Below are positions 4,909 through 34,251 of a stretch of DNA of 34,251 nucleotides, piece after piece. Location: positions 1 to 34,251 of the forward strand of contig CACYSI010000034.1 of NCBI GenBank assembly GCA_902776975.1, written 5' to 3'. Made by a program: the position numbers and the translations under genes. Numbering within the stretch: the stretch's first letter is position 1; the number at the start of each line of letters is the position of its first letter. The notes beneath the pieces are model-generated. The model was not told the DNA's origin. It saw nothing but the letters and a program-made list of their open reading frames with translations, and ran no database searches. The DNA is from an uncultured Ruminococcus sp. Lineage in GTDB: Bacteria; Bacillota; Clostridia; Oscillospirales; Acutalibacteraceae.

Positions 4909-5050
4909 ATACTAATTTCAAATAAAACCCTTTAACATCTATTGCGTTAAATTCCGCATAGCTGCGTTGTCGATCTTGACAGGCGCCAGCCTGCCTGCGA
5001 TCTCCGCTTCCGCAAATATCTTGTTTAAGCGTTTTAATTGAAATTAGTAT
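4909..5050 (-). repeat. Short inverted-end repeat element, copy 1
   Basis: 142 bp with inverted ends: ATACTAATTTCAAATAAAAC at the left and, read in reverse, ATACTAATTTCAATTAAAAC at the right. The interior contains the shared core TTGACAGGCGCCAGCCTGCC. Three related copies occur in this window (14017-14136, 14548-14741, 34155-end). The strand given is the one on which the element reads as the peptide tail seen fused to spoVAE. Compared with copies 3 and 4 it lacks about 16 nt near the GCGGAGATCGC segment. It sits between two convergent genes and disrupts neither. Confidence 0.85.
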
Positions 5051-7398: not shown

Positions 7399-7434
7399 AT
7401 GAGCGCCTGCGCTCATGGTTGAGCCTGCGGCTCA
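7399..7434 (-). repeat. Paired hairpins at the 3' end of guaA
   Basis: ATGAGCGC-CT-GCGCTCAT (7399-7416) and TGAGCC-TGC-GGCTCA (7420-7434) are two adjacent palindromes. The second includes the guaA stop codon. They could attenuate or protect the 3' end of the purine transcript, but no U-tract follows. Confidence 0.45.
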
Positions 7435-8964
7435 CTCCCACTCCACTGTGCCGGGAGGCTTGCTTGTGATATCGTACACTACGCGGTTGACCTTGTCTAC
7501 CTCGTTGATGATGCGGTTGGATACTCTGCCGAGGATGTCATAGGGTATCTGCGCCCAGTCTGCCGTCATGAAGTCGTCGGTAGTGACCGCGCGGATGGCT
7601 ACAAGCTCGCTGTAGGTGCGCTCGTCGCCCATGACGCCAACGGTCTTGACTCCCGGCAGTACGGCAAAGAACTGGCTCATTTTTTCTGCGTAGCCGCATC
7701 TGTCCATCTCGTCGCGCAGTATAGCGTCGGCGTCCTGCAGTATCCTTACCCTCTCGGCAGTGACCTCGCCGATGACTCTCACGCCCATGCCGGGTCCCGG
7801 GAACGGCTGACGCCATACCAGCTCTTTCGGCAGACCGAGCTTTTCGCCAACCGCTCTGACCTCGTCCTTGAACAGGTCTCTCAGCGGCTCGATGATCTTC
7901 TCAAATTTGATGTCCTTAGGGGGATTGACCAGATTATGGTGGGTCTTGATCTTGGCGGCGTCGCCCTTGCCGCTCTCGATGCGGTCGGGATATATGGTGC
8001 CCTGAGCGAAGCAGCAGCTCTTTTCGCTCTCGCGGATATATCCGAAGAAAGCGTTGTAGAACTCTTCGCCGATTATATTGCGCTTGGTCTCGGGCTCGGT
8101 AACGCCCTTGAGCTTAGAGAGAAATCTATCCTGACAGTTGAGTCGGACAAAGTTCATATCAAAGAGCTGTGTGAAGGTCTGCTCCACAAAGTCACCCTCG
8201 TCCTTGCGCATCAGACCGTGGTCGATGAACACGCAGGTCAGTCGCTTGCCTATCGCCTTGCTTATCAGGGCTGCGGCTACCGAGCTGTCTACTCCGCCCG
8301 ACAGACCGAGCACTACTCTGCTGTCGCCGACCTGCCCGCGTATCTCGGCGACGGCTGAGTCGATGAAGCTGTCCATCTGCCAGTCGCCCTTACAGCCGCA
8401 GATCCTGTACAGGAAGTTGCGCAGGATATCTTTGCCGTACTCGGTGTGAGTAACCTCGGGGTGGAACTGGACGGCGTATATCTTGCGCTCTTCATCACAG
8501 AAGGCGGCTACGGGGCATTTATCTGTTATGGCTATAGTCGTAAAGCCCTTGGGAGGATGAGGGATGAAGTCGTGGTGGCTCATCCAGCACACGCTTTTGG
8601 ACGGTACATCGGTGAACAGAACGTTGCTCCTCGCGTATACGTCTATCTTGCCGTACTCGCTGCTGTCATCGGCGCTCTCTACTCTGCCGCCCGCCATATA
8701 GGCTATGAGCTGACAGCCGTAGCATATGCCGAGTATAGGTATTCCGGCGTCAAGTATCGCGGGATCGTAATGCGGCGATTCGGGATCGTATACGCTGTTG
8801 GGACCTCCCGTAAAGATGATGCCGCTGTAGCCCTGTGCTTTGATCTCATCTACCGTGATCTTGTTGTACGGCTTTATCTCGGCATAGATGCCCTGATCGC
8901 GTACTCTGCGGGCTATGAGCTGATTATACTGTCCGCCGAAGTCGAGCACTAATATTTTTTCCAT
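7432..8964 (-). CDS. guaA: GMP synthase (glutamine-hydrolysing), full length
   Basis: 510 aa, the normal length for bifunctional GMP synthase. An N-terminal class I glutaminase domain carries Cys81 in GICYGCQ and His168/Glu170 in FHPEV. It is followed by the ATP pyrophosphatase domain with SGGVDSS at 222-228, AQGTIYPD, RQPFPGPGMGVR and the terminal GTVEWE. It converts XMP, ATP and glutamine to GMP in the cytoplasm. The start at 8964 has AGGAGG 7 nt upstream. It lies downstream of purB and purA in the same direction, so the cluster covers both exits from IMP: AMP via purA/purB and the last step to GMP via guaA. A repeat hairpin separates it from purB. Confidence 0.98.
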   Translation of the reverse strand: MEKILVLDFGGQYNQLIARRVRDQGIYAEIKPYNKITVDEIKAQGYSGIIFTGGPNSVYDPESPHYDPAILDAGIPILGICYGCQLIAYMAGGRVESADDSSEYGKIDVYARSNVLFTDVPSKSVCWMSHHDFIPHPPKGFTTIAITDKCPVAAFCDEERKIYAVQFHPEVTHTEYGKDILRNFLYRICGCKGDWQMDSFIDSAVAEIRGQVGDSRVVLGLSGGVDSSVAAALISKAIGKRLTCVFIDHGLMRKDEGDFVEQTFTQLFDMNFVRLNCQDRFLSKLKGVTEPETKRNIIGEEFYNAFFGYIRESEKSCCFAQGTIYPDRIESGKGDAAKIKTHHNLVNPPKDIKFEKIIEPLRDLFKDEVRAVGEKLGLPKELVWRQPFPGPGMGVRVIGEVTAERVRILQDADAILRDEMDRCGYAEKMSQFFAVLPGVKTVGVMGDERTYSELVAIRAVTTDDFMTADWAQIPYDILGRVSNRIINEVDKVNRVVYDITSKPPGTVEWE

Positions 8965-11801: not shown

Positions 11802-12013
11802 AATTTACCTCCCAAATTTATACCTTCAACACCTTGACGGTGCCATATACTACGATTCTTATAATCTTATATACCGTCTACAGTATATCACAGTCATCAA
11901 AAAAATGGTATAAGTAACGGTAAAAAACGGATATTTTCGGCTATATAACAGAATATCGGATGACAGTTTGAAAAAATTTTATAAAAATAATTCTAAAATA
12001 TCAACAAAACAGG

Positions 12014-12042
12014 TTGTATTTTTAAAAACTTTATGGCATAAT
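12014..12042 (+). promoter_or_regulatory. Probable promoter of the dockerin protein gene
   Basis: TTGTAT (12014-12019), a 17-nt spacer and CATAAT (12037-12042) would give a start near 12049 and a leader of about 33 nt. Both boxes deviate from consensus by one or two bases. Confidence 0.5.
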
Positions 12043-12081
12043 GTATTTGCACCATTATATTCTTTCTTAGGAGGTAAAAGA

Positions 12082-13956
12082 ATGTTCAAGAAAATCATTT
12101 CACTTTTATTGGCTGTTATGATGATAATGTCACTTGTCACCGTAATGGCTACTTCCACCGGCGCTGTTGAGTATGAGAATACAAAGCTGTATTTTGATGT
12201 AAACGGCACAGGCTGGGAAATGGGCGCTAAAGATAAGGTCGGCTTCTATATCTACGGCGACGATTTTGAGCCCATCGCATGGGGCGGCAAGAAGACTCTC
12301 GGCACCAGCGAAGGCGACGGCATCTTCTCGTTTGACCCCGCTGCTAAGAAGATCGAGCTCGAAGAGGGCGTTCAGTACAAAGTCATCTTCACTAAGAACA
12401 TGGGCGAGGAGCAGAGCGCTGATCTGTATTTTGACACCACCTGCTTCGGTCATGTCGCTTACTGCAACGGCGAGATGATCGAGAACACCGTAGACAGCAC
12501 CAAAAAGTCTCAGGTAGCTCTATGGAAAGATCTCGACCCCGAACAGTACGGTCCCGTTAAGGGCATCACCTCTTTAGGCAATGTTGTAGGTACCTGTCTG
12601 CCTCAGGGCAAGACCGATGAGGATCTGTTCAACACATGGCTCATCGAGACAGGCCCTCAGAGCCTGAAGAACGCTATGAAGTACACTGTTCAGCCCGGCA
12701 AAAAGACGTCTCAGCAGCTGGTAGACGATATCGGCGCGGCTCTCGGTCTGACCAAGGATTTCGTTAAGTCGGCTATTGAAGAGAACGCTGCCGGTATCGC
12801 GGAGGCTCTGGCTCTTGACACAACTCTCACAGTTAAATTTGATTGGAAATATGATGATTCTACTCTGCCCTCGGGCGCTCACACCCATACACCCGGCGAG
12901 GCTGTACAGGAGAACGTAGTTCCCGCCTCCTGCAAGGCTGAAGGCAGCTATGACGAGGTAGTATACTGCACAGAGTGCGGTGAGGAGATCTCCCGCGAGA
13001 CTAAGACTATCGACAAGCTCGCGCATACACCCGGTGAGGCTGTACAGGAGAACGTAGTTCCCGCTTCCTGCAAGGCTGAAGGCAGCTATGACGAGGTAGT
13101 ATACTGCACAGAGTGCGGTGAGGAGATCTCCCGCGAGGCCAAGACCATCGACAAGCTCGCGCATACACCCGGCGAGGCTGTACAGGAGAACGTAGTTCCC
13201 GCTTCCTGCAAGGCTGAAGGCAGCTATGACGAGGTAGTATACTGCACAGAGTGCGGCGAGGAGCTCTCCCGCACACCCAAGACTATCGAGTTGGCGGCTC
13301 ATACACTGACAGAGGTTCCCGAGGTACCCGCTACTACTGAGGCTGAGGGCGTTATGGCTCACTATGAATGCTCCGTATGTAAGAAGCTGTTCTCAGACGC
13401 TGAGGGTAAGAACGAAGTTACAGCTGAGGATCTGGTCATCCCCATGCTGCATGTTCATACTCCCGGTGAGGCTGAACAGGAAGACATAGTACCCGCTACC
13501 TGCAAGGAAGCCGGCTCTTACAATCTTGTTGTACGCTGTACAGAGTGCGGTGAGATCATCTCCAGCGATCCCAAGACTATCGAAATGCTCGATCATAACA
13601 TCGAGTTAGTAGAGGAAGTTCCCGCTACTAAGACCGTAGACGGCGTTAAGCAGCACTATAAGTGCACTATGTGCGGCGATCTGTTCTTAGACAAAGAAGG
13701 CACCCAGCCCGTTACTGCTGAGGATCTTGTCATCAAGGCTGAGGCTCTGCGCGGCGACGCTAACGGCGACGGTGTTGTAGATATCGTTGACGTTACTACT
13801 ATCCAGCGCTACTTAGCAGAGTATGAGGTTCCCGTATTTGACGCGACCGCGGCTGACGCCGATCTCGACGGCGAAGTAGATATCATTGACGCTACTCTGA
13901 TCCAGAGAGTTCTGCTCAACATCTGCAACTGGGACAAGGTACCCGCAAACGCATGA
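12082..13956 (+). CDS. Secreted dockerin protein with tandem CxxC repeats
   Basis: 624 aa. A Sec signal peptide (MFKKIISLLLAVMMIMSLVT and on to about residue 30) is followed by a roughly 235-residue N-terminal region with no motif I recognise. From residue 269 come three 46-residue repeats starting HTPGEAVQENVVPASC and each holding CTECGEE, then a HTLTEV unit, another CxxC repeat (HTPGEAEQEDIV) and a further CTMCGD unit. The C-terminus (556-624) is a type I dockerin with two calcium-binding loops, DANGDGVVD and DADLDGEVD, each followed by an I/TxIQR helix. Dockerins bind cohesins on scaffoldins or cell-surface proteins, so the product is probably extracellular and attached to another protein. 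No catalytic domain is evident. AGGAGG at 12069-12074 supports the start. The first three repeats are nearly identical at DNA level. Confidence 0.9.
   Translation: MFKKIISLLLAVMMIMSLVTVMATSTGAVEYENTKLYFDVNGTGWEMGAKDKVGFYIYGDDFEPIAWGGKKTLGTSEGDGIFSFDPAAKKIELEEGVQYKVIFTKNMGEEQSADLYFDTTCFGHVAYCNGEMIENTVDSTKKSQVALWKDLDPEQYGPVKGITSLGNVVGTCLPQGKTDEDLFNTWLIETGPQSLKNAMKYTVQPGKKTSQQLVDDIGAALGLTKDFVKSAIEENAAGIAEALALDTTLTVKFDWKYDDSTLPSGAHTHTPGEAVQENVVPASCKAEGSYDEVVYCTECGEEISRETKTIDKLAHTPGEAVQENVVPASCKAEGSYDEVVYCTECGEEISREAKTIDKLAHTPGEAVQENVVPASCKAEGSYDEVVYCTECGEELSRTPKTIELAAHTLTEVPEVPATTEAEGVMAHYECSVCKKLFSDAEGKNEVTAEDLVIPMLHVHTPGEAEQEDIVPATCKEAGSYNLVVRCTECGEIISSDPKTIEMLDHNIELVEEVPATKTVDGVKQHYKCTMCGDLFLDKEGTQPVTAEDLVIKAEALRGDANGDGVVDIVDVTTIQRYLAEYEVPVFDATAADADLDGEVDIIDATLIQRVLLNICNWDKVPANA
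12886..13299 (+). repeat. Three tandem 138-bp coding repeats
   Basis: Units at 12886-13023, 13024-13161 and 13162-13299 encode near-identical 46-residue CxxC modules and differ by only a few bases, except for a more diverged end in unit 3. The period is a whole number of codons, so unit gain or loss by recombination would keep the frame. Confidence 0.93.
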
Positions 13957-13973
13957 TCTTGAATCAACCTATT

Positions 13974-13999
13974 ATCCCCGAGGCTCAGCCTCGGGGATT
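13974..13999 (+). terminator. Rho-independent terminator of the dockerin gene
   Basis: ATCCCCGAGGCT pairs perfectly with AGCCTCGGGGAT and is followed by TCTTTTGTTG. It lies 18 nt after the stop codon. Confidence 0.88.
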
Positions 14000-14014
14000 C
14001 TTTTGTTGATGAAC

Positions 14015-14452
14015 TTATACTAATTTCAAATAAAACCCTTTAACATCTGTTGCGGAGAATTCCGTATAACTTTGTTGTCGGACTTGACAGGCGCCAGCCT
14101 GCCTGCGTCCTCCGCCGCGTTCTACGAAATTCTTCAGTGACAGCACTATCGCGGCGCTTATGCCGGCGGCTGAGGCGCTCAGCGCGCCGGTCAGAATGCC
14201 CATGGCGCCGTCCTTATCCACCGCCTCGCGTACACCCTGTGCCATAAGATGCCCGAAGCCTGACAGCGGTACGCTCGCGCCCGCTCCGGCGAAGTCCGCG
14301 AGAGGTCCGTACAGTCCTACGGCTGACAGCAGGACTCCGGACACGACAAAGCCGGTGAGTATCCTCGCCGGAGTCAGCGAGGTCTTGTCTATCAGTATCT
14401 GTCCGATCAGGCACAGTGTGCCTCCGATCAAAAAAGCGTATAAATACTGCAT
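14015..14452 (-). CDS. spoVAE: Stage V sporulation protein AE-like, with repeat-derived C-terminus
   Basis: 145 aa. Residues 1-103 match SpoVAE/SpoVAEB: a start YLYAFLIGGTLCLIGQ, the LTPARILTGFVVSG segment, LADFAGAGASVPLSGFG and GILTGALSASAAGISAAIV, with several membrane helices. In Bacillus this protein belongs to the SpoVA channel that moves dipicolinic acid into spores. The normal last helix (about 15 residues in B. subtilis, total 116) is missing. From about residue 106 the protein is encoded by repeat copy 2 (tail with RRQAGACQVRQQSYTEF and ending YLKLV). The stop codon TAA straddles the element edge, with its T from the element and AA from flanking DNA. The start follows GGAAGG. No spoVAC or spoVAD is adjacent, which is unusual. 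Function may be lost or altered. Confidence 0.85.
   Translation of the reverse strand: MQYLYAFLIGGTLCLIGQILIDKTSLTPARILTGFVVSGVLLSAVGLYGPLADFAGAGASVPLSGFGHLMAQGVREAVDKDGAMGILTGALSASAAGISAAIVLSLKNFVERGGGRRQAGACQVRQQSYTEFSATDVKGFYLKLV
14017..14136 (-). repeat. Short repeat element, copy 2 (one end only), fused to spoVAE
   Basis: The left end ATACTAATTTCAAATAAAAC and the core TTGACAGGCGCCAGCCTGCC match copy 1, and similarity fades around the CGAAATT near 14127-14136, where spoVAE coding begins. The opposite inverted end is absent. The element supplies the last roughly 40 codons of spoVAE. Confidence 0.8.
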
Positions 14453-14547: not shown

Positions 14548-14741
14548 ATACTAATTTCAAATAAAACCCTTTAATATCTATTGCGTTAAATTCCGCATAG
14601 CTGCGTTGTCGATCTTGACAGGCGCCAGCAGTGACACTAAGCCAATCGCTTCGCTCTTGGAGTGTTGTTGCATGATCTCCGCCTTGCTCTGCGAAATTTT
14701 CCGCAAATATCTTGTTTAAGCGTTTTAATTGAAATTAGTAT
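14548..14741 (-). repeat. Short repeat element, copy 3 (long form)
   Basis: 194 bp with both inverted ends (ATACTAATTTCAAATAAAAC at the left; ATACTAATTTCAATTAAAAC in reverse at the right). It shares the TTGACAGGCGCCAGC core, then carries an extra segment (about 14629-14677, including CAATCGCTTCGCTC) not present in the other copies. It lies in the 600-bp gap between spoVAE and rnfC, upstream of both. Confidence 0.85.
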
Positions 14742-14842: not shown

Positions 14843-15010
14843 TTAAGGGCACCTCTAAAAATATCTGTAGCCCGATAGCGCTATATCTTCACGCCGCATT
14901 TTTATTCAAAAAGATTTGAAATACGACAGTATTCCTGCACTTTTTTCATAAAAATCCGGCATAAATCTACGGCACTCTCTGACCACATGTATTTTTAGAG
15001 GTGCCCTTAA
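14843..15010. mobile_element. MITE with perfect terminal inverted repeats, upstream of rnfC
   Basis: About 168 bp bounded by perfectly inverted 21-bp ends starting TTAAGGGCACCTCTAAAAAT. If the leading TTAA is a target-site duplication, the inverted repeat itself is the 17 bp starting GGGCACC. There is no coding capacity. GGGCACCTCTAAAAA ends are familiar from IS-derived miniature elements, though I cannot name the parent insertion sequence. It ends 40 bp before the rnfC start codon. Confidence 0.85.
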
Positions 15011-15049: not shown

Positions 15050-16420
15050 TTGTCAGAGCTCAGCTTTCCCAAGCGGCCGTACCGCACACACGGCGGCGTA
15101 CACGCTCCGCATAACAAGAACACTGCTCACAAAGAGAGCCTCGTTATGCCCGCGCCTGCCATGGTAGCGCTGCCTATGACTCAGCATATAGGCGCCCCCT
15201 GCAAGCCCTTAGTAAAGGTAGGAGATACCGTAGACTTAGGTCAGTGTATCGCGAGAAGCGACGCCTTTGTCAGCGCGCCTATCCACGCCAGCGTGTCGGG
15301 TAAGGTCAAGAAGATAGACAAGATCACTATGCCCGACGGAGGCAAGGTGGACGCGATATTCATCGAGAGCGACGGCGAACAGCGTCTCTCGCCCGATATA
15401 CATCCGCCTAAGGTGGAGAGCCTCTCCGATCTCATCGGAGCCGTGCGCGACAGCGGACTGGTGGGTCTCGGCGGCGCGGGCTTCCCCACATCCGTCAAGC
15501 TCAATATCCCTTCGGACAAGAACGTCGATACGCTTATCATCAACGTAGCCGAGTGCGAGCCGTATATCACCTCCGATCACCGCGAGATCCTCGAGAACTC
15601 ATGGGATGTTGTCTCGGGCATCATCACGGTCAAGGATTTTCTCGATATCCATCGCGTCATCATCGGTATAGAGGACAACAAGCCCGACGCTATCAAGGCT
15701 CTGCGCGAGATAGCCGACAGCTCGGTCGATCCCAAGGATGAGATCCGTGTGCTGCCGATCAAGGCGTCATATCCCCAGGGCGCTGAGAAGATACTCATCA
15801 AGGCGTGTACCGGCAGAGAGGTGCCCGTGGGCGGTCTGCCCTCAGACGCGGGCTGTCTGGTGATGAACGTCGGATCGATAGCCTTTATCTCCCGCTATCT
15901 CAAGACAGGCATACCGCTCGTATCACGCAGGCTGACTATAGACGGCGGCTGTATCGAGAATCCCGTCAACGTCATCGCGCCTATAGGTACGCCTATCAAA
16001 GAGGTCATCGACTTTGTCGGCGGCTATAAGGAGCAGCCCTACAAGCTGATAATGGGCGGACCCATGATGGGTATAGCCCTTCCTAACGACGATCTGTACG
16101 TCCTTAAGCAAAACAACGCTATCCTCGCTCTCTCCGAGAAAGAGGCTAAGCATAACGAGCCCTCGGCGTGCATACGCTGCGGCAAGTGCCTCGACGCCTG
16201 CCCCATGCGCCTCCAGCCGCTGGAGCTTTCGAACGCCGCGGACCGCGGCGATACAGACGCGCTCAAGTTCTATAATGCCATGAACTGTATGGAGTGCGGC
16301 TGCTGCTCATTCGCCTGCCCGGCCAAGCGCCATCTGGTCCAGAATATCCGTGTGGGCAAGGCGCTTCTCAATAAGGCTAAACGCGAGGCTATCGCGGCGA
16401 GTAAAGGAGGTAAGAATTAA
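15050..16420 (+). CDS. rnfC: Rnf complex subunit C (ferredoxin/NADH-binding iron-sulfur flavoprotein)
   Basis: 456 aa. It begins with the RnfC barrel-sandwich region. The Rossmann-like NADH/FMN region carries GLVGLGGAGFPTSVKL (about 137-151) and NVAECEPYI. Two [4Fe-4S] motifs follow, CIRCGKCLDACP at 374-385 and CMECGCCSFACP at 413-424. RnfC is the peripheral subunit that passes electrons to NAD+ in the Rnf complex. The start is a TTG at 15050, supported by AAAGGAGG 7 nt upstream and by the normal N-terminal sequence. It is the first gene of rnfCDGEAB, the gene order usual in Clostridia, and its stop overlaps the rnfD start by one base. Confidence 0.96.
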   Translation: MSELSFPKRPYRTHGGVHAPHNKNTAHKESLVMPAPAMVALPMTQHIGAPCKPLVKVGDTVDLGQCIARSDAFVSAPIHASVSGKVKKIDKITMPDGGKVDAIFIESDGEQRLSPDIHPPKVESLSDLIGAVRDSGLVGLGGAGFPTSVKLNIPSDKNVDTLIINVAECEPYITSDHREILENSWDVVSGIITVKDFLDIHRVIIGIEDNKPDAIKALREIADSSVDPKDEIRVLPIKASYPQGAEKILIKACTGREVPVGGLPSDAGCLVMNVGSIAFISRYLKTGIPLVSRRLTIDGGCIENPVNVIAPIGTPIKEVIDFVGGYKEQPYKLIMGGPMMGIALPNDDLYVLKQNNAILALSEKEAKHNEPSACIRCGKCLDACPMRLQPLELSNAADRGDTDALKFYNAMNCMECGCCSFACPAKRHLVQNIRVGKALLNKAKREAIAASKGGKN

Positions 16421-34143: not shown

Positions 34144-34154
34144 TGTACTCTGTT

Positions 34155-34251
34155 ATACTAATTTCAATTAAAACGCTTAAACAAGATATTTGCGGAAAAT
34201 TTCGCAGAGCAAGGCGGAGATCGCAGGCAGGCTGGCGCCTGTCAAGATCGA
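34155..34251 (+). repeat. Short repeat element, copy 4 (runs off the window)
   Basis: It starts with ATACTAATTTCAATTAAAAC and proceeds to the core GGCAGGCTGGCGCCTGTCAA, the inverse orientation of copies 1-3. It keeps the segment (GAAAATTTCGCAGAGCAAGG) missing from copy 1. On the plus strand it would read as the peptide tail ENFAEQGGDRRQAGACQDR. Confidence 0.85.

Follow-up and report, generated by a model that had tools for sequence, protein, structure and literature searches.

Protein ends that derive from MITEs have already been published, and the principle was described as early as 2007 (PMC2759123). In the enterobacteria the repeat RU-1 is described as removing the stop codon of the amidase gene ECA3499 and extending it, and an N-terminal case, that of RU-2 at wbbJ, is described in the same paper (Delihas 2007, PMC2759123). 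In Coxiella the element QMITE2 is reported to give EnhC 33 C-terminal residues, with a stop codon immediately downstream (PMC5896051). In-frame MITE fusions, the Rickettsia palindromic elements (RPEs) included, have been reviewed (PMC10969869), and members of the IS1031 subgroup of IS5 are reported to duplicate a 3-bp TNA target (PMC12016507).

The spoVAE gene of an uncultured Ruminococcus sp., analysed here, resembles RU-1/ECA3499 as described in that a short mobile repeat is involved, the normal stop codon is removed and the protein gains a C-terminal extension past its conserved domain (PMC2759123). It differs in repeat family and host, and also in that a truncated copy of the repeat is involved, the protein lacks 11 native residues and a target duplication serves as stop codon. 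QMITE2 likewise is a MITE that supplies C-terminal residues with a stop directly after them; it belongs to another family, however, and gene and element are linked there by an indel as reported, whereas at spoVAE a probable rearrangement accompanied by loss of host codons is involved (PMC5896051). Like the repeat at spoVAE, RPEs are palindromes of about 150 bp that are read in frame with host genes. In the review, however, RPEs are found in frame in many genes, whereas the intact form of the present repeat closes nearly all frames and only broken copies of it were seen in frame with genes that have Pfam matches (PMC10969869).

The window, that is the whole stretch of 34,251 nucleotides that was analysed, is contig C34 of a 2.14 Mb genome in 65 contigs (97.75% complete). 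Its features are collected in Table 1.

Table 1. Positions of the features discussed, in window coordinates.
Feature	Position	Strand	Description	Basis or precision
Repeat copy 1	4909..5050	plus	142 bp, internally shortened	
Convergent neighbour	11968..13956	plus	repeat-rich protein with dockerin-like segments	named by eye
spoVAE ORF	14015..14452	minus	145 aa	ORF list and Pfam/TIGRFAM profile matches
Stop codon TAA	14015..14017	minus	3-bp TNA target duplication at the intact repeat end	
Truncated repeat copy 2	14017..14134	plus	encodes SpoVAE residues 107-145 on the minus strand	
spoVAE/repeat junction	14132..14137	.	codons CTG/AAG on the minus strand	placed within about 1-2 bases
Host-derived part of spoVAE	14135..14452	minus	codons 1-106; last 11 native codons of relatives missing	
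Repeat copy 3	14548..14741	plus	194 bp, about 95 bp upstream of the spoVAE start, before rnfC	
rnfC-like divergent neighbour	15050..16420	plus	adjacency to spoVAE kept in 13 of the 14 relatives with neighbourhood read	
Repeat copy 4	34153..34251	plus	cut by the contig end	

In profile searches PF03862 matched SpoVAE residues 2–106 with 113.4 bits (cut-off 25), and TIGR02839 matched residues 3–105, corresponding to profile positions 1–103 of 114, with 125.8 bits. Both matches place the product in the SpoVAE family, and the native C-terminal end at about 117 aa is absent. The final 11 positions of TIGR02839 are likewise missing and the score falls below the curated equivalog cut-off of 131.1. 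Nucleotide identity with the relatives ends at CTGTCACTGA/AGAATTTCG, and the junction from spoVAE to repeat reads CTGA/AGAATTTC. The outer end of repeat copy 2, beside the stop codon, is intact, while roughly 39 bp of its spoVAE-side end are gone (model positions 1–119 of 158 being present). The sequence-only reading, in which the frame leaves its family and runs on through copy 2 so that a repeat element provides the C-terminus of SpoVAE, was accordingly borne out, with 106 family residues followed by 39 repeat codons. By itself an open frame of 39 codons is unsurprising, the probability under a first-order random model of copy 2 being about 0.14.

The gene was found in 152 of 161 genomes of the genus (protein search, E up to 1e-30), and its 3' end was read in 69 relatives, a first set of 29 (22 from the genus, 7 from the order) and a second of 40, all from the genus. 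In all 69, SpoVAE is 116–118 aa long and keeps its native end, typically ...LSLIAGLVSRPKEK; the repeat tail was carried by none of them (62 genus, 7 order). Among the matches listed in the genus-wide protein search, this genome alone gave an alignment over residues 1–145. Alignments reaching past residue 120 with a stop inside were given, among the matches listed, by G138, G130, G007 and G136; upon reading, the first three proteins were seen to end at 117, 117 and 118 aa.

The closest relative, G155, shares 87% SpoVAE protein identity. Over codons 1–106 the dN/dS relative to G155 is 0.075/0.92, a value that is silent on the period after the fusion since the fusion is far younger than the split from G155. 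The 117 bp at 14017–14133 are 100% identical to repeat copies in G039 (locus L217) and G045 (L201), meaning that no change has occurred since the join and that there is no basis on which to judge selection on the tail. Full matches to the 117 bp are also present on two named contigs, L114 and L137, but these have the same flanks as the two copies and appear to be the same two loci. The best 19-residue mean hydrophobicity of the last membrane segment of SpoVAE is lowered to 1.67, relative to 1.84 in G155. Repeat copy 3 sits inside spoVAE–rnfC intergenic DNA that is otherwise common to G155. The hydrophobicity drop and this upstream copy fit a spoVAE that is altered or weakening, although neither proves it. 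A search of solved structures with SpoVAE gave no convincing match (best E 0.26). Also upstream of rnfC, at 14843–15010, is an inverted repeat with 82-nt arms that are 74% complementary.

SpoVAC and SpoVAD are both found in the same genome as the fused spoVAE. Several other members of the genus have a spoVAD that is split at a single site, GAAMAP/A(A)ADTI, as compared with the whole gene of G017 (L257). Both parts were seen in G012 (L225, L226, L251, L252), G023 (L253, L254) and G005 (L255, L256), and the front part only in G021 (L258). In G012 the two parts share a strand and are separated by 74 kb. Large serine recombinases are found near a split end, at a distance of about 2 kb in G012 and about 1 kb in G023. 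Judged from sequence, this looks like a skin-type intervening element; none in spoVAD was met in the literature among the matches listed.

The repeat is near-palindromic and MITE-like, with three further copies in the window beside copy 2, and it also occurs in other genomes of the genus. This genome gave 79 raw matches, and 49 repeat pieces, some of them halves of one copy, were counted in the stretches of it that were examined; several contig ends of the genome fall within the repeat. Its exact outer 20-mer occurs in 13 of the 161 genomes, 20 times in this one. Among named contigs the repeat end was found in 52 stretches, 40 of which are titled Ruminococcus (for example the goat-reticulum isolate RGIG3405) and the other 12 Clostridia, Clostridiales, Ruminococcaceae, Erysipelotrichaceae, Lachnospiraceae or Caloramator. 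The target duplication was read from 38 two-ended copies among 100 distinct copies with flanks. The flanks read T-N before the element and N-A after it, with T in 37/38, A in 37/38 and the same N in 32/38. The target duplication is therefore TNA and the element proper is TACTAA...TTAGTA. Element length is 156 bp in 23 of the 38 copies, and the 29-nt ends are 90% alike. The repeat thus has the properties of a MITE: it is short, multi-copy and without a transposase, with terminal inverted repeats and a target site duplication that is identical on both sides in 32/38 copies. The TNA duplication is that expected of an IS1031-type MITE and is shared with the IS1031 subgroup as described (PMC12016507). 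No transposon with the ends of the repeat was met in the DNA examined, the transposase family search having been made with PF13340 alone in 20 genomes. The one DUF4096 transposase above cut-off, in G155 (L243), was considered as an autonomous partner and rejected on account of its own ends, GGGCTTGTTTAA. This insertion sequence (L243 about 1421–2282; G155:C1) encodes its DUF4096-type transposase in two overlapping frames and itself lies inside a repeat copy. No Rfam match was found in the window at gathering threshold, and no MITE of this kind in Ruminococcus was found in the literature among the matches listed.

In G155 spoVAE is followed by a convergent ORF of 51 aa and a hairpin terminator. 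This downstream DNA is matched in the present genome on a separate contig, at C2:1371–1696 (75%, E 1.2e-55), where homology stops just short of the point at which the last codons of spoVAE would begin. Adjoining the displaced DNA is a repeat copy that has both its ends and is flanked by TAA on either side (C2:1199–1342). In the window, the segment 307–2736 is inverted relative to G155, and spoVAE is instead faced by the convergent neighbour, behind which a hairpin was seen by eye at about 13976–14003. No match to this neighbour was found within 4.8 to 8 kb behind spoVAE in G155, G138, G045, G056, G017 and G012, while G053, G130 and G048 are uninformative because their contigs end within about 0.3 kb behind the gene; in G048 there is a weak partial match on the other side, beyond rnfC. 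Taken together, the displaced downstream DNA, the inversion and the unmatched neighbour mark the end of spoVAE as a rearrangement point. Repeats also land close behind spoVAE elsewhere, as seen from an insertion in G023, 119 nt past the first base of the stop codon, and, by eye, from the end of another repeat subfamily at most 10 nt from the stop codon in G048 (L167). Two guaA-like genes, named by eye, are located at 308–1354 and 7432–8964 of the window; the shorter resembles residues 199–510 of the longer, as judged via the match of the longer to the G155 orthologue of the shorter.

We consider it probable, at roughly 0.8, that spoVAE was cut behind codon 106 in a genome rearrangement and fused to an interior point of a MITE-like repeat copy. 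The last 11 codons and the native stop codon would have been removed in this event, and spoVAE would have been separated from the small ORF and terminator found behind it in G155. The join would have fallen in the open frame of the repeat by a one-in-three chance, and translation would then run for 39 codons to the intact end of the repeat, where the TNA duplication (N being A on the spoVAE strand) would be read as the stop codon TAA. We infer this order of events and a non-homologous joining, perhaps helped by a breakage-prone palindrome. The change in SpoVAE was presumably not selected, but either tolerated or slightly harmful. Nowhere else were the missing 39 bp of the repeat found together with the missing spoVAE end, so that a reciprocal junction is lacking.

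An unlikely alternative is direct insertion of the repeat into spoVAE, with the TGA of ...CACTGA... as target, followed by a loss of about 40 bp from the start of the repeat and by a later exchange with another copy that altered what lies behind it. The junction reads CTGA, so that TGA would fit the TNA target, and unlike duplications such as TGA here and TAA on the far side are expected after exchange between two copies; internally shortened copies are moreover common (C23:22619, C30, C35, C44, C58). This history, however, requires three steps as opposed to one or two, and it is not unusual for a TNA to occur at a join by chance. Very unlikely is an assembly error by which spoVAE was joined to a repeat copy from another place. 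The join is known from one draft assembly, in 65 contigs with several contig ends in the repeat, and the outer 20-mer is common to many copies. As this 20-mer occurs 20 times in the genome, a misjoin is possible at the far end of the repeat, the source of the stop codon. The join of spoVAE to the repeat, however, lies mid-contig and outside shared sequence, and the former downstream DNA was found separately at C2.

The effect of the repeat on frames that enter it was investigated further in the 38 two-ended copies. As 156 bp plus 3 make 53 codons, the codon after the ...YLKLV frame, the one that ends SpoVAE, is the target duplication. The stop codon of spoVAE is therefore not one element base and two host bases, as had been supposed, and lies wholly within the duplication. 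Behind the YLKLV frame the duplication is TAA or TGA in 14/38 copies (left-side duplications TTA in 9 and TCA in 5, reversed) and a sense codon in 24/38. Upon entry from the left, a stop was met within 10 codons in 38/38, 36/38 and 34/38 copies in the three phases, and upon entry from the right in 38/38, 36/38 and 15/38; 2 of the 38 copies are open throughout in one phase. Intact copies mostly cap an entering frame with 0–9 residues: an immediate stop, or LY, xTNFK or ILISNKTL followed by a stop. The YLKLV frame is closed to outside entry through an intact copy because the entry edge reads TNA TAC TAA. A tail of 39 residues therefore needs a copy that lacks its outer end, as copy 2 does. The sequence-only reading had other copies keeping most of the frame, which holds mainly for copies of the same subfamily, while many of the listed matches carry 1 to 3 stops.

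Other genes joined to the repeat were sought by a tail search of 18 genomes that gave 534 matches, of which the best about 150 were listed; 20 stretches chosen from these matches and from those of the outer 20-mer were read. This genome was covered by searches and fetched stretches. The 49 repeat pieces of this genome are entered by 20 ORFs with a length of 45 codons or more. Pfam matches among them were limited to spoVAE and an asparagine synthase, the latter gaining no residue. The synthase gene (L013:38–1501; G000:C58) ends exactly at the repeat edge, where the target duplication forms its stop codon TAA. As this gene illustrates, a host stop codon TAA or TGA stays intact when the repeat inserts into it. 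In a wider survey of 126 distinct repeat pieces in 107 loci, spanning all DNA examined, 6 ORFs (at least 60 codons outside) enter the repeat for at least 12 codons, and only spoVAE among these has a Pfam match. An 80-codon ORF of C30 and a 160-codon ORF of C23 with repeat tails were rejected as they have no Pfam match and, by their flanks, are antisense to likely genes. A 340-codon frame of G045:C30 was likewise rejected, having no Pfam match and being antisense, by eye, to an elongation factor Ts-like ORF. At L007 about 1652 (G000:C23:6513) a response-regulator-like frame was seen by eye to abut a repeat minus its last 7 bases, with no start codon seen at the usual place.

In the opposite direction, 4 ORFs start inside the repeat and run at least 100 codons out of it, and the only one with a Pfam match is an RpiR-type regulator in G121 (L202:1585–2562; G121:C17), in which in-frame repeat sequence replaces the native start. 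There the repeat frame passes from ...TEFSAT to LLVRIDL. In 11 of 12 other homologues NLLVRID is read with a start codon a few codons before it, the twelfth (G125) being distant, and the native start of the G121 regulator is therefore gone. This fusion uses the repeat frame seen in spoVAE but has a breakpoint of its own; it mirrors the spoVAE event and is comparable to the N-terminal RU-2/wbbJ fusion as described (PMC2759123). It is the one result that favours more than one capture of the frame, in another genome and at the other end of a gene.

The remaining proposal, that the repeat is a recurrent maker of C-termini that ends host genes with a standard tail, of which that of SpoVAE would be one of many and possibly useful, is highly improbable: SpoVAE does end in the repeat frame, the duplication behind that frame can be a stop codon and the frame recurs in the G121 regulator, but intact copies close most entering frames, the duplication is no stop in most copies, spoVAE stands alone in both surveys as an entering ORF with a Pfam match and gained residues, and its tail is without change relative to other copies. 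No other protein with this ending was found in the searches and fetched stretches of the genome, an outcome that the sequence-only reading had itself named as refuting and that counts against recurrence. It is similarly very doubtful that the TNA target rule serves as a built-in stop by which genes tolerate repeats at their 3' ends and broken copies give stop-terminated tails, with that of SpoVAE a working one. Instead, the breakage of spoVAE and its joining to a repeat interior appear to be a single accident of a type already known.

As such, SpoVAE is a clean and young case of a fragment of a mobile repeat serving as the end of a conserved spore-membrane protein, and the DNA that once lay downstream of the gene was traced to another place in that genome. 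The TNA target rule of the repeat can make a target duplication the stop codon of the host gene, and the weight of the case lies in its detail, not in the principle.
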